Source of the DNA: Candidatus Formimonas warabiya
GTDB taxonomy: Bacteria; Bacillota; Dehalobacteriia; Dehalobacteriales; Dehalobacteriaceae
DNA: 64,000 bases
NCBI RefSeq assembly: GCF_002777255.1
Contig: NZ_CP017634.1
Coordinates: 5,034,903-5,098,902, forward strand
Reading direction: 5' to 3'
In this document: one piece after another, positions 2,738 through 49,691 of the stretch
Position numbering within the stretch: the stretch's first letter is position 1
Layout of the letters: each line of letters begins with the position of its first letter
Made by a program: the position numbers and the translations under genes
Notes under the pieces: model-generated
Databases searched by the model: none
Seen by the model: the letters and a program-made list of their open reading frames with translations, nothing else
Told to the model about the DNA's origin: nothing

Positions 2738-4033
2738 TTAAGTGGTTGCTTCAACAGCTCCTCTCGTTGAAATATAGAGTTGATTATTGCGTAGCAGTGC
2801 ATAAATCAACCTGACAAGTTTTCGTGAAGTCAGTGCGAGTGCTCTTTTATGCTGGAAGCGAGTCGCTTCATTACGTTTTTTATGGTAGAAAGCTGTGTAT
2901 TCGGGATTATGGTTTTTGATTAAACTCATAACGGCTTCGCCCAAATAATAGCGAAGATACTTATTACCTGATTTAGTCATGTAAGTAATATCGCTGGTAA
3001 GGCGTCCGGATTGCTTTTTACGCCATGTAAGCCCAGCAAACTTTGCCAGCTTTTCTTCCGATTTGAAACGGTCAATAAAACCAATTTCAGCGATAATACC
3101 GGCAGAAATCACAGGCCCAAAGCCAGGTATTGACAGAAGACATTGATAGCCGTTGCTTGATAAACCTTTTACTGCTTTTTCAATAGCAGAATCAATTGTC
3201 TTAATTTCCTTCTCAAAAGACTTAATGCAGTTAAAGGAAGCAGCAATCGCAGCGTTTAGCGGTTCATACTGCGCTTTATCCAAACGGTAGGAATCACGTG
3301 CAGCACGTTGAAGCAGCTTAGCCTTGGCTTCAGGATCAGAAAAACGGCTTTTACCTTTTTCGCAGAGAAAATCAATAAGTTCTTCTACTGGAGCATATGC
3401 AATTTCATCCGGTGATAAATAGTCAGTTAGAACTGCAACAGAAGTTGCACCAAACCTATTGGAAAAAGGATTATCTTCTTTATCTCTTGGATTAAGGACA
3501 GCTAGTTCGCTGAATTTAATAAAAATGTTGGTAAGGATATAGGACTTTTCCCTAGCGAGGCTCTCAACCAAATGAAGTCTTACTCTGGTTAGTCGTTGTA
3601 GGGCAACGAAAGCAGAACCATTAAAGGGCTCAGAGGTAATCTTGCCGGTTCTTGCAAAATCGGCAATACCATAGGCATCGTTGGGGTCAGTCTTATCCAT
3701 ATCTACAAAAGTATTCTGATAGGCACTTGTCACCTTGGGATTCAGGCAGTAAACCTTGATATTCAAAGCTGCCAGCTCCGGCGACTGAAAAAGATAATTG
3801 CAAAGGTGGAAGCTGTAGAAAGAAGTAGCTTCCATTGCAGTGACCACATGAGTAGCTTTGGAAGAAACTGCTGTACGAAGGATCTCCGAAGTGATCAATG
3901 AAGCTCCAGATAAATTGTTGTTAAAAGAAACAGAAGCCAGTTGATTTCCAAAGAAGTCAAGAATGACAGCATGGTGAGCGCGTAAGCTCACATCTATACC
4001 GATAAAGAGTGTTGATAGCAATTGCTTTTTCAT
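2738..4033 (-). CDS. IS110-family transposase
   Basis: A 431-residue DEDD transposase. The N-terminal RuvC-like domain starts with FIGIDVSLRAHHAVILD (first catalytic Asp) and has VVTAMEATSFYS (Glu). The C-terminal Transposase_20 domain contains LLSIPGFGPVISAGIIAEIG, the expected KFAGL segment, and SGNKYLRYYLGEAVM with the region of the catalytic Ser. IS110 enzymes recombine DNA through a Holliday-like intermediate guided by an RNA made from the element's own end. The frame is intact, so the element may be active. The ATG is preceded on the minus strand by AAAGGTGG. It is an insertion between nagA and yajQ and interrupts no recognisable gene. Confidence 0.93.
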   Translation of the reverse strand: MKKQLLSTLFIGIDVSLRAHHAVILDFFGNQLASVSFNNNLSGASLITSEILRTAVSSKATHVVTAMEATSFYSFHLCNYLFQSPELAALNIKVYCLNPKVTSAYQNTFVDMDKTDPNDAYGIADFARTGKITSEPFNGSAFVALQRLTRVRLHLVESLAREKSYILTNIFIKFSELAVLNPRDKEDNPFSNRFGATSVAVLTDYLSPDEIAYAPVEELIDFLCEKGKSRFSDPEAKAKLLQRAARDSYRLDKAQYEPLNAAIAASFNCIKSFEKEIKTIDSAIEKAVKGLSSNGYQCLLSIPGFGPVISAGIIAEIGFIDRFKSEEKLAKFAGLTWRKKQSGRLTSDITYMTKSGNKYLRYYLGEAVMSLIKNHNPEYTAFYHKKRNEATRFQHKRALALTSRKLVRLIYALLRNNQLYISTRGAVEATT

Positions 4034-22856: not shown

Positions 22857-22928
22857 GGGGGGTGGATCGGCAGGATCGCATAGACTCTAAATCTATGTAG
22901 CCGGGTGTAACTCCCGGACTCCCCGCCA
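22857..22928 (+). tRNA. pylT: tRNA-Pyl (anticodon CUA)
   Basis: A 72-nt tRNA that folds by eye with tRNA-Pyl hallmarks. These are a 7-bp acceptor stem (GGGGGGT with ACTCCCC), one base between acceptor and D stem, a 4-bp D stem with a 5-nt loop and a 6-bp anticodon stem (CATAGA with TCTATG). The loop is CTCTAAA, with anticodon CTA at 22887-22889; the variable loop is only 3 nt, and the T stem is CCGGG/CCCGG. Discriminator G and an encoded CCA end the gene. It decodes UAG as pyrrolysine. It sits directly after pylD, and amber-containing mtbB and mttB lie 4-7 kb downstream. Confidence 0.97.
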
Positions 22929-23012
22929 TACCTGAAAATGATTTGTTTTATCGTGCCTTGAGACTGTTTTGACGGGTTCTGTCCAGGTTAAGCGGAGCAA
23001 GGAGTGGATAAA

Positions 23013-24767
23013 ATGATTAAGCTTGCAGATATTTCTCATGACGATTTTTTTCTTTTGCCCTCCGGGGCAAAAGTGGCCGATGTTCTGGAAGATATTTTAG
23101 ATCATCACACCCAATATATCATTCGCTGCTCAGAGAAAGAAGTTGGCGCAGTCTACCGGACATCTGTTTTATTGCGGGAAGCTCTGAAAAACGGCTCCGG
23201 TTCCCTGGGGGAAAATATCCTGGTCAGTGAGAGATTTGCCGTGATTCAGGAGGGGGATTCTCTCCTGGATTTATTGGCTTTGGAGGATCATCCTGATTTG
23301 ATTGTTCTGGTCAATGAGGGAACAGTTCCCGTGGGGATGATTGACGGGTTGGAGGCAATTCGGAAACTGCTCCATGATTTTTATGGGATGATACCCGGGA
23401 CAAAACTTTCTTTGCCGGAATACCGGGATATTGTGGAGCAACTGGAAGAAGAGATATTCGTTACCGATGGTGCCGGATTTATTTTATATCTGAACCCGGA
23501 AGGGGAAAAAGTTTGCGGCGTGAAACTGGAAGAGGTGATTGGAAAGCACGTCAGCGATTTGGAAAAGGCCAAGATTTTTACGTCCAGTACCACCGTTGAG
23601 GTGCTTAAAACCAAGAAGAAGGCCAATTTACTGCAAAAGCTGAAGTCCGGAAAAACGGTTTTGGCCACGGGCAGACCCATTTTTGATCAGAAAGGCCGGC
23701 TCGTCCGGGTTTTAAGTACCACGAAAGATGTCAGAGAGATCAATCATTTAATGGAACAGATTGAACAAAAGAACAAAGAGATTAAGCACAAAAACCAGGA
23801 GCTGACTTTGTTGCGGGAAAGTATTTTTGCCCAAGACAACTTTGTGTGCAAAAGCCCTAAAATGACAGGAATTAAAGATACCATCATCAAAATTGCCCCG
23901 ACGGATATCACTGTCCTGATTCAGGGAGAATCAGGCGTGGGAAAAGAAGTGGTGACAAAATTAATTCACAATTTAGGCCTGAGAAACAGGTACCCTTTGA
24001 TCAAGATCAATTGTGGCTTAATTCCGGAAAATTTGTTGGAATCCGAATTATTCGGTTATGAGGGCGGGGCTTTTACCGGGGCGAATAAACATGGGAAATT
24101 AGGGAAAATCGAATTAGCCAACCAGGGAACCTTATTTCTCGATGAAATTGGCGAGATGCCCTTAAGTCTCCAGGTGAAGCTGTTGGAGTTTTTGCAGGAC
24201 AGAGAGTTTACCCGGGTGGGAGGCACGCAAAAGATAAAAATTGATACCCGGGTGATTTTAGCCACCAACCGGGATTTGCAGACGATGGTCAATCAAGGCC
24301 GCTTCCGCCGGGATCTTTTTTACCGCCTCAATGTCCTGCCCATCAACATTCCTCCTTTAAGGGAGAGAGTGGAGGATATTCCGGTGCTGGCGGAATATTT
24401 CCTGGATCAATTCAACAACAAGTATCAAATGAATAAAAAGTTGGCCCCGGACGTGATCGAAGCATTTTATGAGTATGATTGGCCGGGCAATGTCAGGGAA
24501 TTGGTCCATTTTATTGAGAGAATCATGGTGATCAGTGATGCGGATTTCATTACCCGGGACATGTTGCCGGAAGTGTTCGGGGGAAATCCGTCTCCCCGCC
24601 AGACCATTATCTGCACCGACCTGATTCCTTTGAAAAAAGCGAAAAATGAATTGGAGGCCCAGCTCATCAAACGGGCTTACGAGATCTATAAATCTACCTA
24701 TAAAGTAGGAAAGGTATTAGAGATCGACCAGTCCACGGTGGTGAAACTGCTTAAAAAATATAGATAA
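23013..24767 (+). CDS. sigma-54-dependent transcriptional activator (CBS-like, PAS, AAA+, HTH)
   Basis: A 584-residue enhancer-binding protein. Residues 1-120 resemble a CBS pair; 135-240 form a PAS domain (IFVTDGAGFILYLNPEGE); a coiled linker follows. The AAA+ domain has Walker A GESGVGKE at 305-312, the sigma-54 contact loop GAFTGA at 352-357 and Walker B TLFLDEIGEM at 373-382. A short C-terminal HTH (about 540-580, KVGKVLEIDQSTVVKLLKKY) resembles TyrR-type HTH domains. ATG 23013 is chosen because AAGGAG lies 8 nt upstream; GTG 23004 overlaps that site. Two sigma-54 promoters with matching inverted-repeat arrays follow at 25146 and 26998, so it probably switches on the adjacent methyltransferase genes in response to a small ligand. 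Confidence 0.93.
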   Translation: MIKLADISHDDFFLLPSGAKVADVLEDILDHHTQYIIRCSEKEVGAVYRTSVLLREALKNGSGSLGENILVSERFAVIQEGDSLLDLLALEDHPDLIVLVNEGTVPVGMIDGLEAIRKLLHDFYGMIPGTKLSLPEYRDIVEQLEEEIFVTDGAGFILYLNPEGEKVCGVKLEEVIGKHVSDLEKAKIFTSSTTVEVLKTKKKANLLQKLKSGKTVLATGRPIFDQKGRLVRVLSTTKDVREINHLMEQIEQKNKEIKHKNQELTLLRESIFAQDNFVCKSPKMTGIKDTIIKIAPTDITVLIQGESGVGKEVVTKLIHNLGLRNRYPLIKINCGLIPENLLESELFGYEGGAFTGANKHGKLGKIELANQGTLFLDEIGEMPLSLQVKLLEFLQDREFTRVGGTQKIKIDTRVILATNRDLQTMVNQGRFRRDLFYRLNVLPINIPPLRERVEDIPVLAEYFLDQFNNKYQMNKKLAPDVIEAFYEYDWPGNVRELVHFIERIMVISDADFITRDMLPEVFGGNPSPRQTIICTDLIPLKKAKNELEAQLIKRAYEIYKSTYKVGKVLEIDQSTVVKLLKKYR

Positions 24768-25332: not shown

Positions 25333-26814
25333 ATGAAAAGAAGTGAAAAATCCGGCATTGAGATCGGCACGGGGTTTGGCTTGAAGTCTTTTTCCCCGGA
25401 CCAAGTAGAGATGCTTCATGATGCTACATTAAAGGTGCTCCAAGATACGGGAATCAAAGTAGAAAGCGATGCGGCGGCGGAAATATTTTCCGGGGCCGGT
25501 GCGCAGGTAGAGCGCTTTTCCAATTATTTTACCGTGAGAATCCCTTCCTATATTGTGGAAGACTGCATCCGCTGGGCGGCCCGTCCGGGAATTTTTTACG
25601 GCCGGGTTCCGGAAGATGACTTTCTTGCGGAGCCCCATCGGGTTGGGTTTGCCACCTTTGGTGAATGTATTCAAGTGATCGACCCCGTGACCAGAAGGGT
25701 GAGGAAGTCTACCAAAAAAGACTGCGGGGATATCTCCCTGATTTGCGACTATTTTGACGAGATCAGCGTCATGGAACGGCCTTGCTGCTCCTCGGATATG
25801 CATCCGGAGACACAGCCCCTGCACAATTTGGAAGCCATTTTTACCAATACTTCCAAACCGGTGTTTCTCGCCGCTGTGAACCCGCGCAATTGCAGAAAAA
25901 TGGTGGAGATGGCGATCGTCTGTGCCGGAGGAAAGGAAAACTTCCATAAACGTCCCTTCCTAAATATTTTTGTTTGTCCTACCAGCCCCTTGCTTTTAGT
26001 GAAAAATTGCTGCGATGTGATTATAGAAGCGGCCGGATTAGGGGCGGGCATTGCTATTATTCCCATGGCTTTAGCCGGCGCCACGTCGACAGCGACTTTG
26101 GCCGGGACCATCGTCACCCACAATGCGGAAGTATTAAGTGCTCTTGCCTTGGCCCAGCTGACGAAAAAAGGCTGCCGTTGTGTTTATTGCGGTGTGAGCA
26201 CGATTATGGATCTCCGGCTCATGGTGGGCCCGGTAGGTGCTCCGGAACAGGCTTTATTGGCTTCCGGGGCCGCAAAACTGGCCCAATATTATCGATTACC
26301 CAGTTGGATCGGCGGCGGTGTGTCGGACAGTAAACTGCCTGATGCCCAAGCAGCTTATGAGTTTGCCCTTAACGCTTTAACCGGCGCTTTGGCCGGAGCG
26401 AACATTGTCTATGGCGCAGGTGTGCTGGAATTAGGCCTGACCCAAGATTATGCCAAGCTGGTGCTGGACGTGGAAGCCATCCGGTCCATCAAAAGAATCA
26501 TGAAAGGCGTGGAAATTACCGATGAGACCCTGGCCTTGGATGTGATCCATCAGGTTGGTGCCGGCGGAGAGTTTCTCACCCACGCGCATACCTTTCAGCA
26601 TATGCGGGAACAGTCCCAACCGGCCCTTTTTGACCGGAAGACCCGGGATTCCTGGCTGAAAAGCGGAGGAAAAGATGCTGCGGAACGGGCTTACGAAGAG
26701 GCCTTACATATTTTGGAGAACCATCGGCCCAAGGTCCTACCTCCGGGGGCAGCCGGTATCATGAAAGAAATTATTGCTGATTATGAAAAAGAACTTGGTG
26801 TGGCCGGAAAATAA
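25333..26814 (+). CDS. MttB-family corrinoid methyltransferase without pyrrolysine
   Basis: A 493-residue TIM-barrel methyltransferase of the trimethylamine/betaine superfamily. It is the closest relative in the window of the Pyl-containing MttB at 29462, sharing stretches such as VTHNAEVL and DSKxPDAQAA. At the pyrrolysine position (residue 330, codon 26320) it has Val, so it should use a quaternary amine or another substrate rather than trimethylamine; this is known for MtgB-type homologues. GGCGGAGG precedes ATG 25333. It sits behind sigma-54 promoter A and ahead of promoter B, implying joint control with mtbB-mttB. The methyl acceptor is probably the corrinoid protein at 28622. Confidence 0.88.
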   Translation: MKRSEKSGIEIGTGFGLKSFSPDQVEMLHDATLKVLQDTGIKVESDAAAEIFSGAGAQVERFSNYFTVRIPSYIVEDCIRWAARPGIFYGRVPEDDFLAEPHRVGFATFGECIQVIDPVTRRVRKSTKKDCGDISLICDYFDEISVMERPCCSSDMHPETQPLHNLEAIFTNTSKPVFLAAVNPRNCRKMVEMAIVCAGGKENFHKRPFLNIFVCPTSPLLLVKNCCDVIIEAAGLGAGIAIIPMALAGATSTATLAGTIVTHNAEVLSALALAQLTKKGCRCVYCGVSTIMDLRLMVGPVGAPEQALLASGAAKLAQYYRLPSWIGGGVSDSKLPDAQAAYEFALNALTGALAGANIVYGAGVLELGLTQDYAKLVLDVEAIRSIKRIMKGVEITDETLALDVIHQVGAGGEFLTHAHTFQHMREQSQPALFDRKTRDSWLKSGGKDAAERAYEEALHILENHRPKVLPPGAAGIMKEIIADYEKELGVAGK

Positions 26815-27196: not shown

Positions 27197-28591
27197 TTGG
27201 ATAAGTTTTTTACCAGGATGGGGGATGGTTCCGCGGTCTGGATGAGCGAGGAAGACATTCGCTGGGACTTGGAAGAGGGCATGAAAGATGCGGCAGACCG
27301 GGGCAAAATTCCTGAGCTGACCGATGATGAAATGCAACAATTATTTGAAATAGTCACCCATCCCTTAAAGAATGTAAGCTGTGCCCGGGGAAATGAGGCC
27401 GTGGTCACCTTTGATGCCGGAACCTTAAAGCTGCCTGTGCGGGCAGGGCTTCCCATGGACCGGATGACCACCATTCTCACCCATGAAAGGGCCTTATGCT
27501 CGGATACCATGGAGCTTTGCACCACGGACTACAGTTATAAATCGATTAAGAATTTTGTTCATGAAGAAGCCATGTCTATGGAACTGGCCCAATTAAACAG
27601 CATCATCCCGCTGTTTTACGGCGCCATGCCCAATCTGGGCCAGTACACAAAACCGGATGGCCCCATTGATAACTGGTCGGAACTTTTACCGATGGCAAAA
27701 ATTGCTGAAGCACGGGCCGCGCAAGAGGAAGCGATTGAACATGCGGTGCGGGATATGGTCTTTATTGCCAGCGCCCTTTACGAAGAAGGCGGGGCAGACG
27801 GCATCAACTTTGACACGGTAGGCGCGTCAGGAGACGGAGATGTTCTGGCTACGCTCAAAGCAGCCCAAATCCTCAAGGGAAAATATCCGGAAATACCCAT
27901 TGAAATCGGCATGTCCGGAGAATTTGTCTTGGGGATGCACGGCCAGTTGGCTTTTGACGGTACCAGATTGGCGGGGCTTTATCCCCACCAGCAGGTCAAG
28001 GTTTGTGAAAAGGCCGGCGCCACCATCTTTGGTTGTGTGATCAATACCAACAGCAGCATGTCCTTTGCCTGGAATCTGGCCCGAACGGTCACCTTTACCA
28101 AAGCCTGCGTAGAAGCGGCCAGCATTCCGGTTCACGTGAATGCCGGGATGGGTGTGGGCGGGGTGCCCTTGACCAATACTTCTCCCACCGATGCTACGTC
28201 CCGGGCCTCAAAGGCCATTATTGAAATCGGCAAGGCGGACGGGTTGTAGATTGGTCATGGCGATGCCTACGGGATGGCCGTGATGCATGAGGTGACCACA
28301 GGCATGGGCGGAATACGTACTGCCGGAGATCTGGTAGCACGGATGCAGATGCTGAAGGGCATGAAATTGAAGGATGCGAAAGAATATGTAGCAGGGAAAC
28401 TAGGGGTTGACCTGTTCGATCTTTCCGATTCCTATGTGATGAAAGAGCTGAGGGAACAGCTGGATATCGGCACTGTGCTGGACCGGGCCAACGCTTCTTT
28501 TGGTATGGAAGCCAAGTTCAACATCGCCCGGGTCCTGGATATTCCCATCAATTCGGTAAATAAATTTAAACGAAAAGTTGGCATGGTATAA
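27197..28591 (+). CDS. mtbB: dimethylamine methyltransferase MtbB with in-frame amber (pyrrolysine)
   Basis: The gene reads 350 codons, meets TAG at 28247-28249, and continues in frame for 113 more codons to TAA, giving 464 residues, the usual MtbB length (about 467). The sequence before the amber, GKADGL, and after it, IGHGDAYGM, fits the MtbB active site, where pyrrolysine (residue 351) binds the amine. It transfers a methyl group from dimethylamine to a corrinoid protein. Other landmarks are IPLFYGAMPN, GINFDTVGASGDGD and HVNAGMGVGGVPL. Start TTG 27197 follows AAAGGAGG. It is the first gene after sigma-54 promoter B; the corrinoid partner gene follows at 28622. Automated annotation would split it in two. 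Confidence 0.95.
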
Positions 28592-29415: not shown

Positions 29416-29461
29416 TTGTGGTAAGAGATCAAACCGGATCATTCTTTTGGAGGTGAAAGGA

Positions 29462-30937
29462 GTGTCACGAAATTTACACGCAGGATTTCATCGCATCGAC
29501 GGTTTTGGCATCAATGTTTTTTCCCGGGACGAATTGTATGCCGTCCACTGCGCTACTTTGGATGTGCTGCAGCATGTGGGAGTAAGAGTGGACAGCAAAG
29601 AAGCCCAGGAAATTTTCGCCGGCGGGGGAGCTACGGTGGACCCTCAGACCGACATTGTGAAAATACCTCCCTACATGGTGGAAGATGCGCTGCGTTGGGC
29701 TCCCGGCACCTTGCTGCTGGCGGCCCGGGACCCGAAAAAGGATTATATTTTGGAGAGCAACCGGGTGGGATTTGTCAATTTCGGTGAAGGGGTCAATATC
29801 ATCGATCCTGTGACCCGAAAGTACCGGCCTACCAACAAAAGGGATGTGGCCAACGCCGCCTTGATGAGCGACTATTTATCGGAAATGGATATTTCCTATC
29901 GGGCCGTGGTAGCCCAGGATCAACCGGGGCATGTGCAGTCCCTCCATAATGCGGAAGCCATTTTTCCCAATACCGCCAAACACTTTTTCATCGGCGCGGA
30001 CGGTGTGAAAAACGCCCGGAAGCTGATTAAGATGGGGGCGGCCCTAGCCGGCGGTAAGGATAAATTAAAAGAAAGACCCCTGATCAGTTTCAACGTCTGC
30101 CCCACCAGCCTTTTAAAACTAATCCCCGAGTGTACGGATGTGGTCATGGAAGCTGCCCGGGCCGGGATTCCTGTGAATATTATTTCCATGGCCATGGCCG
30201 GAGCCACCTCTCCCGTAACCCTGGCAGGAACTTTAGTGACCCATAATGCGGAAGTGCTGGCAACCATCGTACTCAGCCAGTTCACATGCAAGGGCGCTCC
30301 CTGTATTTACGGAAGCTCTACGACGATCATGGATATGCGGTATACCACCGCACCCGTAGGGGCGCCGGAACTGGGCATGATTAGCGCGGCGGTGGCCAAA
30401 ATGGCTCAATATTACTTGCTGCCTAGTTTTGTCGCGGGCGGGTAGGCGGACAGTAAAGTGCCTGACGCTCAAGCAGCTCATGAAAAAACCCTCACCGGTC
30501 TTTTGGCTGCCCAGGGTGGCGCCAACCTGATCTATGGGGCCGGGATGCTGGAGCTGGGAATTACTTTTGACTTTGCCCAATTTGTTATGGACAACGAGAT
30601 CTTTAAAATGATCAGAAAAGCTGTGGGCGGCATCCGCGTCACCGATGCCGACATGGCGGTGGATATCATCAAGGAGATCGGACCCGGCGGAGAATTCATC
30701 AGCCATGCCCATACCTTCGAGAACTTTAGAAAAGAGCAGTCCCAAAGCAGATTAATTGACCGCACCATGCGTGATACCTGGTTGCTCAGCGGAGGAAGGG
30801 ACCTAACGGAGAGAGCCTATGAAGAGGCCAATCATATCCTGAATACGCACAAGGTGGCCCCTTTGGCTCCCGGGACCGAAGGTACGATCCGGTCTATTGT
30901 GGAAGAGGCGGAGGAGGAGTACGGAATAAAAAGGTGA
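29462..30937 (+). CDS. mttB: trimethylamine methyltransferase MttB with in-frame amber (pyrrolysine)
   Basis: The coding frame runs to TAG at 30443-30445 and then continues without break to TGA 30937, 491 residues in all. The amber (residue 328) lies in PSFVAGG[12 protein letters not shown]. The non-Pyl paralogue at 25333 has PSWIGGG-Val-SDSKLPDAQ, so alignment proves that the two halves are one gene. MttB moves a methyl group from trimethylamine to its corrinoid protein. GTG 29462 is preferred over TTG 29447 because GGAGG lies 8 nt upstream of it. It is the last gene of the promoter B operon. The 158 nt up to the next BCCT gene contain no obvious strong terminator. Confidence 0.96.
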
Positions 30938-42787: not shown

Positions 42788-43585
42788 ATGTTAATAGTGG
42801 GAGAATTGATTAATACCAGCCGGAAAGCGATCAAACCTGCGGTAGAAGCCAGAGACGCCGCTTTTATCAAAGATATGGCCCAGAAACAGGTGGATGCCGG
42901 CGCCGATTATGTCGACGTAAACTGCGGTACTATGGTTTTCAACGAAGAAGAAACCATGGCCTGGTTAGTGGAAACTGTGCAGTCCCAGGTGACCGCACCG
43001 CTCTGTATCGACAGTCCCAACCCCAAAGCTTTGGAAGTAGGGCTTTCTTTATGCAAACACGGCCAGCCCATGATTAATTCCATCACCGCGGAAAAAGAAC
43101 GTTATGCTACCATCCTGCCCTTTGTCTTAAAATATAAAGCCAAAATCGTCGGTCTGTGCATGGATGACTCCGGAATGCCGGAAACTGCGGAAGACCGCTT
43201 AAGAATTGCCGACAGGCTGGTGGGCGACATGGTTGCCGCCGGGGTACCGGAAGACGACATCTATCTGGATCCCCTAGTGAAGCCGGTAAGCACGGGAGAC
43301 AAAGCCGGTTTGGAAGTCCTGGACACCATTTACGGGATCAAGCAGAAATACCCCAAGGTCCACGGCATCTGCGGCTTGAGCAACATTTCCTACGGTTTGC
43401 CCAACCGGAAAATCTTGAACCAGGTCTTCATGATCCAAACCATGACCATGGGCATGGACGGCTACATTCTGGACCCATTGGATAAGACCATGATGGGATT
43501 TGTATATGCGTCCCAGGCTCTCTTGGGCAAAGACGAATTCTGCATGAAATATTTGACGGCACACAGGAACGGATTGTACGAATAA
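42788..43585 (+). CDS. mtgA: methylcorrinoid:tetrahydrofolate methyltransferase (MtgA-like)
   Basis: A 265-residue pterin-binding TIM barrel of the MtrH/MtgA type. It has LIVGELINTSRKAI, then DAGADYVDVNCGT, LCIDSPNPKALE, and DPLVKPVSTGD and GLSNISYGLPNRK, which form the pterin pocket seen in methyltetrahydrofolate methyltransferases. It would take methyl groups from methylated corrinoid proteins and give methyl-THF, feeding the Wood-Ljungdahl pathway. Its partner MtgB-like gene starts 40 nt downstream. A relic of a second copy lies at 29281. This is the only intact candidate for that step in the window, so it may serve several corrinoid proteins. GAGGAGG precedes the ATG. Confidence 0.92.
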   Translation: MLIVGELINTSRKAIKPAVEARDAAFIKDMAQKQVDAGADYVDVNCGTMVFNEEETMAWLVETVQSQVTAPLCIDSPNPKALEVGLSLCKHGQPMINSITAEKERYATILPFVLKYKAKIVGLCMDDSGMPETAEDRLRIADRLVGDMVAAGVPEDDIYLDPLVKPVSTGDKAGLEVLDTIYGIKQKYPKVHGICGLSNISYGLPNRKILNQVFMIQTMTMGMDGYILDPLDKTMMGFVYASQALLGKDEFCMKYLTAHRNGLYE

Positions 43586-43624
43586 AAAGTTTGCTTCTAA
43601 AAAGATCTTAGGAGGTGCGGCTGG

Positions 43625-45040
43625 ATGACTGTACGTGGTTGGAATGTACTCAGTCAACAGGATATGGAAAGTATTCATGAAGCTACGTTAACCATCCTGG
43701 AGAAAACAGGGGTCAACGTAGGCTACGAGCCTGCCTTGGAAGCGTTCAAAAAAGCCGGTGCCCGGGTAGATGGGGAAAGGGTTTATCTCCCCAGGGCCCT
43801 TGTGGAAAAGAAAGTCAAGGAGGCCCCCAGTGAATTTACCCTTTATGCCCGTAATCCGGAAAAAAATATTACCATCGGGGGAGATCATTTTATTACCGCT
43901 CCCGGATACGGCGCTCCCTTCGTGACAGATTGGGATCACAAAAAACGTACGGCAACCTATGCCGATTACGAAAACTTTGCCAAATTGGCCGGAGCCAGCA
44001 AAAACCTGAGCATGACCGGGGGAGTTCTGGTAGAGCCTTCCGATATTCCGGATGAGATCAGACATGCCAAAATGCACTATGCCTGCATCCTTTATTCGGA
44101 TAAATGTTTCATGGGCAGTTCATCAGGAGCCAAGAAGGCTGTTGACAGCATAAAAATGGCCCAGATCCTCTTTGGTCCCGAGCATTCTCTACTGGAAAAG
44201 CCTGCCTTAATCAGCTTAATCAATACCATTACCCCTTTGACCCTAGATGAGCGTCAAGCGGGCGGATTGATGGAATATGCCAAAGGGGGACAGGCATGCA
44301 TTGTCGCCGCTTTGTCCATGGCAGGCGCCACATCTCCTGCTTCCCTGGCTGGGACTTTGGCCGTGCAAAATGCGGAAATCCTTACCGGGATCATTCTAGC
44401 CCAGATTGTGCGACCGGGCGCACCTGTGGTATACGGTTCCACGTCTTCCATTACGGAAATGAAGTATGGATCATTGACCATCGGCGCTCCCGAAACGGCT
44501 CTGGTCACCAATGCTACCGCTCAAATGGCAGCTTTCTATGGAATTCCCTGCCGGGCCGGCGGCGGCCTGACAGATGCCAAATGCGTGGATGCCCAGGCAG
44601 GAGCGGAATCCATGATGAATCTGCTCACGGCGTCGCAAAGCGGCATCAACTTTGTATTACATGCCGTGGGTATCCTGGAATATTATATGAGTATGTCTTA
44701 TGAGAAATTTATTGTCGATGATGAGAATTTAGGCATGGTATTGAGGTTCAGACGGGGCATCGAAGTAAATGAAGAAAGCCTTCCTCTGGAGATGATTCAT
44801 CAGGTGGGTCCGGGAGGTCATTTCTTGGACCAGGAGCATACGTTTAATACCTTTAGGAAGGAATTCTGGAAGACCAGCATTTATGACAGAGGAACCTATG
44901 ACAACTGGCGGCTGTCAGGGGCACCTGCCATCAACGAAGTAGCCCATAAAAAGTGCGGGGAAATATTATCTCAATATCAGCCTCCCGCTTTAGACTCGCT
45001 CATCGATAACCAACTGAAAAAGTTTATACAAAATTTGTAA
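43625..45040 (+). CDS. mtgB: MtgB-like glycine betaine-type methyltransferase (no pyrrolysine)
   Basis: A 471-residue MttB-superfamily enzyme. The pyrrolysine-site loop reads CRAGGGLTDAKCVDAQ with Leu315 in place of pyrrolysine. It is immediately downstream of mtgA and upstream of two BCCT carriers, the same set of neighbours known for glycine betaine demethylation in Desulfitobacterium (MtgB makes dimethylglycine and methyl-corrinoid). Relatives act on proline betaine, carnitine or butyrobetaine, so glycine betaine is the best but not the only guess. No corrinoid gene lies in this unit; the pair at 36138/38305 may supply it. TAGGAGG precedes ATG 43625. Confidence 0.87.
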   Translation: MTVRGWNVLSQQDMESIHEATLTILEKTGVNVGYEPALEAFKKAGARVDGERVYLPRALVEKKVKEAPSEFTLYARNPEKNITIGGDHFITAPGYGAPFVTDWDHKKRTATYADYENFAKLAGASKNLSMTGGVLVEPSDIPDEIRHAKMHYACILYSDKCFMGSSSGAKKAVDSIKMAQILFGPEHSLLEKPALISLINTITPLTLDERQAGGLMEYAKGGQACIVAALSMAGATSPASLAGTLAVQNAEILTGIILAQIVRPGAPVVYGSTSSITEMKYGSLTIGAPETALVTNATAQMAAFYGIPCRAGGGLTDAKCVDAQAGAESMMNLLTASQSGINFVLHAVGILEYYMSMSYEKFIVDDENLGMVLRFRRGIEVNEESLPLEMIHQVGPGGHFLDQEHTFNTFRKEFWKTSIYDRGTYDNWRLSGAPAINEVAHKKCGEILSQYQPPALDSLIDNQLKKFIQNL

Positions 45041-45070
45041 CGGTCTGAACAGAACGAGCCATAGCAAGGT

Positions 45071-45170
45071 AGTGGGAAGTTGCCCTAGTGAAGAGAGCTT
45101 ATTACGATACTTCCCACTGCTTTACTTTTGAGTCAGTTTTAACTTAAAAAAGTTTTTCTTTGACTCAAAA
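45071..45170 (+). terminator. tandem hairpins after the mtgB-like gene
   Basis: AGTGGGAAGT (45071-45080) pairs with ACTTCCCACT (45109-45118), followed by T-rich sequence. A second stem, TTTTGAGTCA with TGACTCAAAA (45126-45170), follows. The first is a good terminator. Confidence 0.75.
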
Positions 45171-45315
45171 AATAAGAGGATAATGAATTATTATGACGAA
45201 TATTAAATACCAAAGAAAAACTTATAAAATCAACTGTTAAACTTTGTAAATATCCAGTAAAAAACTTTGAGTATTTCAGAGTGGACATGCTTCAACTGAT
45301 TAACCTTGTTACGTA

Positions 45316-45640
45316 CAGCAGATATGGTATCCTAGGAACCCGGCTACACTTCCTTCACTAAAAACGGGCACAATCTTATGTAAGAAATGCAGCCGGGAAC
45401 ACAAGTATCGGCACTAAAAGGGAATGGTAAACTTGGCAGGTGAACAATTCCTCTGTTTAGTGCTCGAATGTTTGGAGGTGGTTCAAGAACCCACAAAAAA
45501 TGAAAACTAACTTTTTTAAACCCAAAAAGATAAAGCACATCATCTTAAGAAAATTATACAAGGGTAAAAAAATGATTACAAGGTATGTTCTTGTTTATAA
45601 TGTTTAATATCTTGCGCTTTTCTTTGGATACCATCTGCTG
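45316..45640 (+). ncRNA. candidate structured leader RNA 1 (upstream of BCCT gene)
   Basis: A 325-nt segment closed by a long-range helix: CAGCAG and ATGGTATCC (45316-45332) with GGATACCATCTGCTG (45626-45640). Inside are P1 (CCCGGCT 45339 with AGCCGGG 45391), P2 (GCACTAAA 45411 with TTTAGTGC 45456, inner GGAAT/ATTCC, loop containing ACTTGGCAG at 45431-45439) and P3 (45478-45494). The same plan and loop recur at 47596-47927. GGATACC can instead pair with GGTATCC at 45666-45672 just before the BCCT start, a possible switch. No known riboswitch class is recognised. Confidence 0.55.
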
Positions 45641-45694
45641 CTGCGGGAAATAAACCATATCCTGAGGTATCCTAAAATGAAGGGGGATCTTTTA

Positions 45695-47317
45695 ATGGAT
45701 AGTCAGAAAAAAATCAATTTTACACCAAGGGCGATTAAAGAGTATACTCAAGATTGGGGTTTTTTGGGGCGTATTGACTCCGTAGTATTTATTATTTCGG
45801 CCGTTATTTGCTTCGGTTTTGTAATCTGGGGTTTCATAGATAACAAAGGACTTGGTGCCGTTGCCAGTGCTGCCCTGAACTGGACCATTAATTACACCGG
45901 CTGGATGTATATGGGCGGAGTTTTCTTCTTCGTGCTGTTCTGCTTTTATATGGCGTTTAGTAAATACGGAAAAGTGAAATTGGGCAAACCGGAAGACAAA
46001 CCTGAATACTCGACTTTTTCCTGGTTCGCCATGCTGTTTGGCTGCGGAATGGGTGTAGGACTGATTTTCTGGTCCGTAGCCGAGCCCATGTATCATTTTA
46101 TGAGCGGCCCCACCTATGCTGGCGCGCATGGAAGCACCCAGGCGGCAGAATGGTCCATGGCCATTGCCTTTTTCCACTGGGGACTGAGTGCCTGGGCCGT
46201 GTTCGTAGTAATTGGGATTGTTATGGGCATTATTATGTTTAAAAAAGGCTTGCCTGCTTTAATGAGCACCTGCTTGTACCCGATCCTGGGCGACCGGGTC
46301 TATGGTCCTATCGGTAAGCTGGTGGATATTGTTACCTTGGTGGCAACTTTCTTTGGTATGTGCACCACCATCGGATTAGGTACGATGCAGTTGGCCTCGG
46401 GTGTTAATTTTAATTACGGAGTTCCCCTTGGCAACGGGCTCAATATTGTTTTGCTGGCCATTGTGACGATTTGCTACCTTTGTTCTGCTTGCTTGCCCAT
46501 TGACAAAGGGATTAAGCTTGGTTCCGACATCAGTATGATTGCCTGCTTAGCATTAATGGCATTCCTGTTTATCGTCGGACCCACCAAATATATCTTGGAC
46601 AATTTTGTTAATGCTACCGGAATCTACCTCCAGAATATTGTGCAAATGAGTTTGTGGACGGATCCTGTGGAAAAAACTGGCTGGCTGGGCGGCTGGACCA
46701 TTTTCTACTGGGCTTGGTGGATCGCTTGGGCTCCTTTCGTCGGTATGTTCATTGCCAAGATCTCTAAAGGCCGGACCATTAAAGAATTTGTTTTGGCTGC
46801 TTTGATCGCGCCGACTATTTTTGATATGATTTTCATGAACATTTTCGGCACAGCGGGTTTAAGCATGGAATTAACTGAAGCCACAAAAGGAGTCCTTTGG
46901 ACGGCAATTCAAAACGATCTTTCCAGTGCCATTTACGTCTTGTTTAGTCAGTATCCCTTAATTGGCCTGGTTGCCCCGATTTTGCTCTTTGTCTGCTTTA
47001 CCTTCTTTGTGGTGTCGGCAGACTCTTGTACCATTGTTTTAGGGATGCTGTCCAGTGGCGGCAACGACGAACCCAAGATCAGCTTGAAACTCTTATGGGG
47101 TGTTGCCATGGGTGTTTCCGCAGGGGTACTAATGAACATGGGCGGCTTAGGAGCCCTGCAAACAGCTTCGATCGTTGGAGCCTTCCCATTCACCATTGTG
47201 ATGTTCTTTATTTGTTACACTACGGTGAAGATGTTGAAGTCCGATTTTGCGGATGAAGTTAATGCACCGGCTAAACTGTTGCCAGTTGCCGGGGCAAAAG
47301 AGAATACGGCTGTATAA
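45695..47317 (+). CDS. BCCT-family betaine transporter 1 of tandem pair
   Basis: A 540-residue BCCT carrier with twelve helices. Helix 3 reads FGCGMGVGLIFWSVAEPMYH and helix 8 WTIFYWAWWIAWAPFVGMF, the aromatic cage for trimethylammonium compounds; GMGVG is close to the sodium-coupled betaine carriers (GMGIG). The start at ATG 45695 is chosen because AAGGGGGA lies 7 nt upstream; the ATG at 45677 overlaps that region and lacks a site. It closely resembles the next gene at 48075. It follows the mtgA-mtgB-like pair behind a long leader, so uptake of the betaine to be demethylated is the likely job. Confidence 0.93.
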   Translation: MDSQKKINFTPRAIKEYTQDWGFLGRIDSVVFIISAVICFGFVIWGFIDNKGLGAVASAALNWTINYTGWMYMGGVFFFVLFCFYMAFSKYGKVKLGKPEDKPEYSTFSWFAMLFGCGMGVGLIFWSVAEPMYHFMSGPTYAGAHGSTQAAEWSMAIAFFHWGLSAWAVFVVIGIVMGIIMFKKGLPALMSTCLYPILGDRVYGPIGKLVDIVTLVATFFGMCTTIGLGTMQLASGVNFNYGVPLGNGLNIVLLAIVTICYLCSACLPIDKGIKLGSDISMIACLALMAFLFIVGPTKYILDNFVNATGIYLQNIVQMSLWTDPVEKTGWLGGWTIFYWAWWIAWAPFVGMFIAKISKGRTIKEFVLAALIAPTIFDMIFMNIFGTAGLSMELTEATKGVLWTAIQNDLSSAIYVLFSQYPLIGLVAPILLFVCFTFFVVSADSCTIVLGMLSSGGNDEPKISLKLLWGVAMGVSAGVLMNMGGLGALQTASIVGAFPFTIVMFFICYTTVKMLKSDFADEVNAPAKLLPVAGAKENTAV

Positions 47318-47340
47318 GACCAACCGATTTAAACTGTAGA

Positions 47341-47384
47341 AAAAAAGGACTGTTTGGGAATTTTCCTAAACAGTCCTTTTTTTG
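47341..47384 (+). terminator. terminator of BCCT gene 1
   Basis: AAAGGACTGTTTGGG pairs with CCTAAACAGTCCTTT around a short T-rich loop and ends in seven Ts. Confidence 0.92.
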
Positions 47385-47595
47385 GATAGATAAAAAAATA
47401 AGTCGAAAAGGACTTAAAATAATCCTGATCGGCACAAGGATTATTCATTTTTATGACGAATAGATTAAATATTAAAAAACCAAAAAAATCCAAATGAAAA
47501 ACCAAAAAAATCCAGTAGTATGATCTTTAGAATACTAATAAAAGACACTACGTAAACATAACATAAGCAGTCGAGAAGATTACTTAACAGCGATA

Positions 47596-47927
47596 CAGCG
47601 GTATAGTATCCCTAAAGATTCGGCCCCACCTACGTTTTTCGTCGATTAAGGGTGGAGCCGGAATCAGCCCAAAATCCGGCCATGAGCAAAAAGAAATTGC
47701 CTTTACTTGGCAGTGGGACAATTTCCTGCCATTGGCCGAGTTCTGTAAGTGGGGGGTGAGAAAAACCGCCACAGGAAAATTAAAAAAACTATTTGTAAAA
47801 GCTGTTTGTATTTTATCCGGATCAAGCCAGGTTCCTTTGGCGTTCTAATTATACAAAATTCGACATTCTTTTTCAATATAAAGTGACAGGATGCTTGTTT
47901 AAATTTTTGACTATGGGATACTAGCTG
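47596..47927 (+). ncRNA. candidate structured leader RNA 2 (upstream of BCCT gene)
   Basis: A 332-nt segment with the same architecture as 45316-45640. The closing helix is CAGC and TAGTATCCC (47596-47612) with GGGATACTAGCTG (47915-47927). P1 is GATTCGGCCCCACC (47617) with GGTGGAGCCGGAATC (47651). P2 has outer GGCCA/TGGCC, inner GAAATTG (47693)/CAATTTC (47719) and the same loop ACTTGGCAG (47705-47713). P3 pairs GTGG with CCAC (47749-47772). Stem sequences differ from leader 1 but pairing is kept, the pattern expected of a functional RNA. Between it and the gene (47928-48071) nothing else is recognised. Confidence 0.55.
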
Positions 47928-48074
47928 CTGTTCGAATACGCGATACTCACCCATTCCATAGGATGGGGAGCATGCGGACAAATATCCCCTTTTTTAATGG
48001 GAACAAATTGGAAAGGGAATTTGTTGTCTTAATGTTGTTTTAAATATATCCAGAGAAGAAAGGAGATTCTTTTG

Positions 48075-49691
48075 ATGGAGACGCCGAAACAAACAGGTTT
48101 CAAACACAGGGATATTAGCGAATACACAAAGGATTGGGGATTGTTTGGTAAAGTTGATCCCACTGTGTTCATTGTGTCTGCGGTTTTTTTAATTGCCTTC
48201 ACCCTTTGGGGAATAGTTGACAACAAAGGCCTTGGCACAGTGTTTGGCGCAGCCCTTAGCTGGACCATTAAATATACCGGATGGCTATATATGGGCGGAG
48301 TATTCTTTATTTTACTCTGGTGCCTTTATATGGCCTTTAGCAAATACGGCCAAATAAAACTGGGCAAGCCGGAAGATGTACCGGAATATTCAAATTTCTC
48401 CTGGTTTTCTATGCTGTTTGGCTGTGGAATGGGCGTAGGTTTAGTTTTCTGGGCTGTGGGTGAACCCCTGTATCATTATATGAGCGGTCCGACTTATGCC
48501 GGTGATCCGGCCAGTACTTCGGCTGCGGAATGGTCTATGGCCATCACGTTCCTGCACTGGGGACTGAGCGCTTGGGCCGTATATGTTGTAATCGGGATCG
48601 CCATGGGTATTTTAATGTATAAAAAGGGGCTCCCTGCACTGGTAAGTACTTGCTTCTATCCCCTTTTAGGTGACAGGATCTACGGACCTATTGGGAAAAT
48701 AATTGATATTGTTACCTTGGTAGCAGTATTCTTTGGCCAGTGTACGACGATTGGCCTGGGTGTGATGCAGCTTTCTTCCGGGGTGAATTTCAACTACGGT
48801 GTTCCTCTGGGACTTGGCCTGAATATTGTGATCCTCTTCATTGTAACGGCTGTCTACCTGGCTTCCGCCTGCCTACCTATTGAGAAGGGTATTAAAACCG
48901 GGTCGAACATTAGCATGATTTGTACTGTAGGTATATTGCTTTATATGTTCCTTGCCGGACCTACCACTTATATATTGAACAACTTTGTCAACGGTACCGG
49001 ACTTTATCTGCAGAATATTATTAAAATGAGTCTTTGGACAGATCCGGTCGGTCAAACGGGCTGGGCCGGCGGTTGGACCATTTACTACTGGGCATGGTGG
49101 ATTTCTTGGGCACCCTTTGTCGGTTTGTTTATTGCAAAGATTTCCAAAGGCCGGACGATCAAGGAATTTGTTTTGGCTGCTTTGATCGCGCCTTCTTTCT
49201 TCGACATGATTTTTATGGATATTATCGGTTCAACGGCATTAAACATGGAACTTGTCGAAGCCACCAAGGGTGTCGTCTGGGGCGCGGTGCAAAATGACTT
49301 GTCCAGTGCTATTTATGTGATGTTTGATATGTTTCCGGGCGCTGTCATTTTGGCACCAATTCTCTTGTTTGTTTCCTTTACCTTCTTTGTTGTGTCAGCC
49401 GACTCTGCCACCATTGTGCTGGGTACTCTGTCCAGCGGCGGTAATAATGAACCCCGGACCAGCTTGAAGCTTCTTTGGGGTATTACCATGGCGGTGGCCG
49501 CCGGAGTTCTGCTGGTGGCCGGTGGTTTGTCGGCACTGCAGGGCGCATCTATTGTGGGCGCATTAGCTTTCACCATTGTGATGCTCTTCCTATGCTATTT
49601 AACGCCAAGAATACTTAGGGAAGACTACATGCATGAAGTCGAAGCTCGTCCAATTCGTGTTTCCGGTTCTAAGGAAAGCGCTTCCGTATAG
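48075..49691 (+). CDS. BCCT-family betaine transporter 2 of tandem pair
   Basis: A 538-residue paralogue of the carrier at 45695, very similar throughout (FGCGMGVGLVFWAVGEPLYH in helix 3, WTIYYWAWWISWAPFVGLF in helix 8). Differences cluster in loops and the N- and C-termini, so the two may differ in affinity or in closely related substrates. ATG 48075 follows AAAGGAG. It has its own leader and terminator, and so is separately regulated. It ends in TAG, with the next in-frame stop about 18 codons later, which matters in a pyrrolysine-using cell. Confidence 0.93.
   Translation: METPKQTGFKHRDISEYTKDWGLFGKVDPTVFIVSAVFLIAFTLWGIVDNKGLGTVFGAALSWTIKYTGWLYMGGVFFILLWCLYMAFSKYGQIKLGKPEDVPEYSNFSWFSMLFGCGMGVGLVFWAVGEPLYHYMSGPTYAGDPASTSAAEWSMAITFLHWGLSAWAVYVVIGIAMGILMYKKGLPALVSTCFYPLLGDRIYGPIGKIIDIVTLVAVFFGQCTTIGLGVMQLSSGVNFNYGVPLGLGLNIVILFIVTAVYLASACLPIEKGIKTGSNISMICTVGILLYMFLAGPTTYILNNFVNGTGLYLQNIIKMSLWTDPVGQTGWAGGWTIYYWAWWISWAPFVGLFIAKISKGRTIKEFVLAALIAPSFFDMIFMDIIGSTALNMELVEATKGVVWGAVQNDLSSAIYVMFDMFPGAVILAPILLFVSFTFFVVSADSATIVLGTLSSGGNNEPRTSLKLLWGITMAVAAGVLLVAGGLSALQGASIVGALAFTIVMLFLCYLTPRILREDYMHEVEARPIRVSGSKESASV

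Follow-up and report, generated by a model that had tools for sequence, protein, structure and literature searches.

Attenuation by antisense RNA is known above all from the control of plasmid copy number, such as in pT181 and pIP501, where a pre-emptor occupies the 5′ strand of a stem resembling a terminator until the antisense RNA binds (PMC5703833). Two leaders on the chromosome of 'Candidatus Formimonas warabiya' DCMF, each preceding a BCCT transporter gene, resemble these plasmid systems (PMC5703833) in that they are predicted to be long and untranslated (~320 nt is reported for pIP501-like plasmids), in that a promoter for an antisense RNA lies within the leader, here by sequence only, and in that a pre-emptor arm could pair with the 5′ strand of a stem resembling a terminator, which in leader 2 has a U-run before the gene. 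They differ in that chromosomal transporter genes rather than rep are involved, that two paralogous systems lie side by side, and that the antisense RNAs are predicted ones of 280–340 nt, compared with 87 nt for RNAI of pT181. Moreover, leader 1 is without a U-run, leader 2 matches no plasmid record, and leader 1 likewise has no match in phage records.

A second precedent is S1290 of B. subtilis, in which convergent antisense transcription, of the kind predicted here, acts on a compatible-solute transporter unit of a Firmicute (PMC7186363). S1290, however, is read from a SigB promoter, extends over the coding region of opuB, and works through transcription interference (PMC7186363), whereas the RNA predicted here would be limited to the structured leader before the BCCT genes and has a sigma-A-type promoter. 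Riboswitches and T-boxes are also similar in having a long helix that closes a junction of several helices and a pairing alternative close to a terminator or ribosome-binding site, but the leaders described here match no Rfam family, have no phylogenetic spread, and contain a strong promoter on the opposite strand.

The locus and its two structured leaders

The window analyzed, meaning the whole 64-kb stretch of DNA, is part of a genome of 6,441,270 bases. Judged by gene order and protein lengths (265, 471, 540, and 538 aa), the gene run at 42788–49691 corresponds to the published cluster Ga0180325_114739–114742 (mtgA, mtgB, opuD, opuD), which contains glycine betaine cluster genes of this organism (PMC9768040). 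The last two are BCCT genes 1 (Ga0180325_114741, 45695–47317) and 2 (Ga0180325_114742, 48075–49691), both on the plus strand and encoding OpuD proteins of 540 and 538 aa from the chosen starts, and there are 15 BCCT matches in the genome. In published proteomics, levels of 9 of 9 cluster proteins were significantly higher with glycine betaine as the substrate than with dichloromethane, with log2 changes between the two substrates of −6.68 (MtgB), −5.33 (OpuD of BCCT gene 1), and −2.64 (OpuD of BCCT gene 2) (PMC9768040). As the whole cluster rises on betaine, including the upstream genes that lack this leader, these data do not by themselves implicate the leader.

Several other features of the window are recorded here in their own right. 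An MttB-superfamily gene at 25333–26814 has no in-frame TAG and contains a match (26320–26419, 64.3 bits) to PYLIS_3, the Rfam pyrrolysine insertion element; it adjoins Pyl-type genes that do have an in-frame TAG (27197–28591 and 29447–30937) and a tRNA-Pyl gene (22857–22928). Directly 3′ of the tRNA-Pyl gene is an ORF (23004–24767) that by eye resembles a PAS/AAA+/HTH sigma-54 activator, of which 'Ca. Formimonas warabiya' has 59 (PMC12316311). An ORF resembling an IS110-family transposase, also recognized by eye, is found at 2738–4033, in surroundings that are otherwise metabolic.

The two related regions of ~330 nt, one 5′ of each tandem BCCT gene, have in common a closing helix, three hairpins (P1–P3) and the loop ACTTGGCAG. 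This is the fold that an earlier note on this DNA had described, and all of its elements, including the bulge of the closing helix and the two tiers of P2, were found where that note had placed them. The closing helix of leader 1 pairs 5′ arm a (45316–45332) with 3′ arm b (45626–45640) on the plus strand through 15 bp with a 2-nt bulge, while that of leader 2 pairs arm a (47596–47612) with arm b (47915–47930) through 16 bp with a 1-nt bulge and two G-U pairs. The hairpins could form on either strand: P1 at 45339–45397 in leader 1 and at 47617–47665 in leader 2; the two-tier P2 at 45411–45463 and 47677–47738, with the loop at 45431–45439 and 47705–47713; and P3 (GTGG/CCAC) at 45478–45494, where it is weak, and at 47749–47772. 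The 9-nt loop of P2 is identical in the otherwise diverged copies.

Both leaders have stable folds with closed ends, and the pairing of the closing arms was better than that of 2000 of 2000 shuffles in leader 1 and of 1992 of 2000 in leader 2. When a plus-strand covariance model was built from leader 2 alone and run against 140 kb of sequence, which takes in the regions upstream of the other BCCT genes of the genome, leader 1 was its sole other match (16.3 bits, E 0.018). In a two-sequence alignment of the leaders that was fitted to the structure, 95.6% of cells pair, compared with 29–49% when the partners are slid, and nine pairs are changed on both sides, with 0 of 500 shuffles as good. P3 is uninformative either way because it is invariant wherever both copies can be compared. 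Since the leader 2 model recovers leader 1, the pairs covary and the closing arms outperform shuffles, the leader structure is very probably real and under selection, although this is judged from two sequences.

The leaders appear to be confined to this locus. As the earlier note had anticipated in recognizing no known riboswitch or T-box class, no Rfam family matched them at the gathering score, and no relevant one at E up to 5 (cmscan, 4227 families, Rfam 15). There were no further copies in the genome beyond the two by DNA comparison, the plus-strand model or the two-sequence model (one other match had 15.7 bits and E 1.29), and the leader was found neither upstream of the genome's 13 further BCCT genes nor upstream of the nearest relatives from other genomes (L041–L044). 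Searches of 399 genomes of the phylum likewise revealed no homologue. The plus-strand model gave no credible match in these genomes, with three matches at E 0.05–0.08 per genome, fewer than chance allows, and the best other match of the minus-strand model (25 bits) aligned well essentially only in P1, skipping P2 and the loop. Among 84,980 species genomes, the loop pattern occurred in 46 stretches that are scattered over phyla, lie nearly all inside open frames and include no homologue; two that were considered lie within an RNA-methyltransferase-like gene of a Peptococcaceae bacterium (L083) and within a radA-like ORF of Thermoactinomyces (L092), and both were rejected. Two viral contigs with the loop pattern had no match to the fold model. 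These searches covered genomes, viral contigs, and plasmid and phage records, and strongly diverged relatives would be missed by the exact loop pattern and the two-sequence model.

Predicted promoters on both strands

The longest plus-strand block that is conserved between the copies contains the motif AGGATWA-N-GACGAATA (at 45177 and 47437). This resembles a sigma-H promoter, and both occurrences fit the consensus RNAGGAWWW/RNNGAATWW quoted for this factor (PMC8510167). For BCCT gene 1 the predicted promoter, AGGATAA..GACGAATA, is at 45177–45202 with a predicted start at ~45210, and for BCCT gene 2 the corresponding sites are 47437–47462 and ~47470. The sigma-H-like motif has three matches in the window and 132 in the genome, compared with 17 for a reversed control, and the genome has a clear sigH gene (379 bits, cut-off 294.8). 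A terminator-like hairpin follows mtgB (45071–45118, plus strand; AGTGGGAAG..CTTCCCACT, then CTTTACTTTT; −24.4 kcal/mol), and a strong bidirectional terminator with T-runs on both strands (−23.2 and −18.9 kcal/mol) is located between the BCCT genes at 47344–47379. Because terminators thus precede leader 1 and separate the two genes, each BCCT gene is likely to be its own transcription unit. The latter hairpin is near-perfect and would also stop an antisense transcript reading through from leader 2.

Three other candidate elements were rejected. No short peptide encoded in the leaders is conserved on either strand, and the apparent MTN peptides (45193 and 47453) coincide with the −10 box of the sigma-H-like promoters. 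A sigma-54 site at the loop sequence TTGGCAG lacks the GC at −12. Repeats of GGATAC/GTATCC, considered as regulator sites, are not special, as the window has 41 occurrences of this motif.

The minus strand has a sigma-A-type promoter at the matching place in both leaders, just beyond P3 and reading into P3, P2, and P1. When all sites on both strands of the 64-kb window were ranked with a hand-set matrix based on the consensus, the candidate in leader 1 (TTGTAA-17-TATAAT, 45553–45581) was eighth, with 21 of 1000 shuffles as good, and that in leader 2 (TTGAAA-17-TATAAT, 47848–47876) was second, with 0 of 1000 as good; the plus strands of the leaders were unremarkable by the same measure (220 and 953 of 1000 shuffles as good). 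The boxes of the minus-strand promoters are identical between copies at 11 of 12 positions compared with 6 of 17 in the spacer (Fisher p 0.003), and this is the most strongly conserved non-hairpin feature within the leader. Boxes that are kept while the spacer is lost are the footprint expected of a promoter, the activity of which is predicted. From these promoters, antisense RNAs would extend over 45262–45546 in leader 1 and 47503–47841 in leader 2, both on the minus strand. For the second, the 3′ end would be formed by a hairpin of −9.8 kcal/mol followed by a T-run. For the first, no convincing intrinsic terminator was found, the best candidate having −1.2 kcal/mol, and its 3′ end is uncertain.

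Strand preference and alternative pairing

The block from P1 to P3 folds better on the minus strand than on the plus strand, with z-scores of −5.48 and −1.82 in leader 1, and −3.65 and −2.41 in leader 2, respectively. This is because three A-C mismatches of the plus-strand P1 become G-U pairs, and P1 of leader 1 is nearly perfect on the minus strand (−30.0 vs. −15.3 kcal/mol); as an exception, the plus strand is favored by a single pair in each copy, which belongs to P2 in leader 1 and to P1 in leader 2. Leader 2 models of equal size found leader 1 with 20.2 bits (E 0.0002) on the minus strand and 16.3 bits (E 0.018) on the plus strand. With a difference of only ~4 bits from two sequences, P1–P3 lean toward the minus strand, which is a preference and not proof. 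The closing helix, on the other hand, spans the antisense promoter. Arm b would be upstream of the point at which the antisense RNA starts, and the helix must therefore be confined to the plus-strand RNA, or to a role in DNA; two of its pairs in leader 2 are G-U on the plus strand. It thus seems that both strands are of importance, with the closing helix relevant to the mRNA and the hairpins at least equally to the predicted antisense RNA.

In each leader, arm b has an alternative partner, termed c. The earlier note had suggested a switch through a second GGTATCC near the start of BCCT gene 1, and this sequence is indeed present (45666–45672), but its pairing is not significant alone, with 146 of 2000 shuffles as good. 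The counterpart in leader 2, which was absent from that note, is TATCCCCTTTTTT (47983–47995, plus strand), consisting of TATCCC followed by U6, for which 226 of 2000 shuffles were as good. At ~7–11% of shuffles as good, the b:c pairings are not significant by themselves, and a switch is weakly supported. When leader 2 was modeled to the U-run, a:b had a probability of 1.0, and when the part covered by the antisense RNA was blocked, b:c had one of 0.91–0.99 (about 0.97). With the transcript extended beyond the U-run, the probability of b:c was only ~0.01, and hence a switch in leader 2 would be workable only while transcription is near the U-run. In leader 1 with its 5′ part blocked, b:c reached 0.53. 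Here c is followed by the ribosome-binding region and no U-run, so attenuation of the type considered for leader 2 does not apply, and the modeled accessibility of the ribosome-binding site hardly changes with the pairing. The start region of BCCT gene 1 (45666–45706) can also form a local hairpin (TATCC..GGATA) around the ribosome-binding site that would rival b:c.

Proposed antisense control and the alternatives

At the level of sequence, the locus has a homologous pair of structured leaders, promoter motifs that are conserved on the plus as well as the minus strand, and the potential for the pairings given above. The best current reading is that an antisense RNA of some kind controls the transporter leaders, and we would give this an even chance of being correct. 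It is more likely than a metabolite-sensing riboswitch, which is the nearest competitor and which we regard as improbable. In that case the leader would be a cis-acting plus-strand sensor of betaine, a demethylation product, a cofactor, or a protein, and the choice between the closing helix and b:c would set transcription in leader 2 and translation in leader 1. Such a sensor is consistent with the closing helix, a plus-strand feature with significant pairing in each copy, with the covariation of the hairpins, with the presence of the b:c alternative in both leaders, and with the greater abundance of the transporters on betaine. Yet there is no Rfam match and, unlike known classes, there are no homologues elsewhere, P1 on the plus strand has A-C mismatches and a weaker fold, the conserved minus-strand promoter would be left unexplained, and the rest of the cluster, without this leader, is also more abundant on betaine. 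The specific proposal of the earlier note, a sensor of betaine, osmolarity, or methyl metabolism, had assumed an mRNA leader and overlooked the opposite-strand promoters; it is not supported, in view of these conserved promoters, the leaning of P1–P3 to the minus strand, and the fact that no aptamer-like conservation extends beyond the two tandem copies.

A more doubtful explanation is that the minus strand encodes two stand-alone small RNAs that act in trans via the conserved loop (CTGCCAAGT on that strand), with overlap of the leaders being incidental. The strong and conserved promoters, the preference of the fold for the minus strand, the identity of the 9-nt loop in otherwise diverged copies, and a plausible terminator in copy 2 (−9.8 kcal/mol and a T-run) would all be accounted for, but the closing helix cannot belong to such an RNA and yet is conserved with covariation, the terminator of copy 1 is weak (−1.2 kcal/mol), and both copies are at an equal place before paralogous genes. 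Slightly less probable again is a leader that binds a protein or stabilizes the mRNA without any switch, the minus-strand promoters being incidental. Stable folds with closed ends would suit this role and promoter control alone could give induction, but boxes kept while the spacer is lost, and ranks of second and eighth in the window, are not what one would expect of incidental promoters. A DNA element, such as a MITE, another mobile repeat, or inverted operator sites, is suggested by the inverted arms of 15–16 bp that are ~300 bp apart, but is very improbable, as the genome contains no further copy, the window is rich in GGATAC motifs (41), and the G-U pairs and the within-copy covariation of the arms argue for pairing in RNA.

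For control by antisense RNA we infer the following scheme, including the existence of the RNA, its 3′ end, the repressive sign, and the attenuation step. Transcription of each BCCT gene would begin at the sigma-H-like promoter and generate an untranslated leader of 480–600 nt that encloses a convergent sigma-A-type promoter, and the latter would give rise to a structured antisense RNA of about 280–340 nt over P3, P2, P1, and arm a. Through the hairpins and the loop ACTTGGCAG the antisense RNA would make contact with the mRNA leader, possibly also across the two paralogous systems. Sense-antisense pairing or polymerase collision would then result in less transporter until there is strong induction of the plus-strand promoter. 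Attenuation specifically is a tentative proposal, and we would sooner expect it to be wrong. It is plausible in leader 2 that a pairs with b in the free leader, which would be the pre-emptor state, and that when the antisense RNA takes arm a, b would be free for TATCCC-U6 and transcription would end, while in leader 1 the freed b may instead pair near the ribosome-binding site.

Taken furthest, antisense control would mean that a duplicated chromosomal attenuator of the pT181 type governs nutrient uptake, in which each of the two structured antisense RNAs could recognize both transporter leaders through the invariant loop and so set the ratio or the delay of the two betaine transporters, and that it represents a new RNA family without known relatives, a combination that we consider unlikely. 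If true, a paired chromosomal case acting on substrate transporters would place the logic known from plasmid copy control in the catabolism of an anaerobic betaine and dichloromethane degrader, and the two copies would be a natural pair for cross-talk via their common loop. In a leader that resembles a riboswitch, much of the conserved structure can be due to an RNA from the opposite strand, and hence a riboswitch should be claimed only once the strand has been tested.
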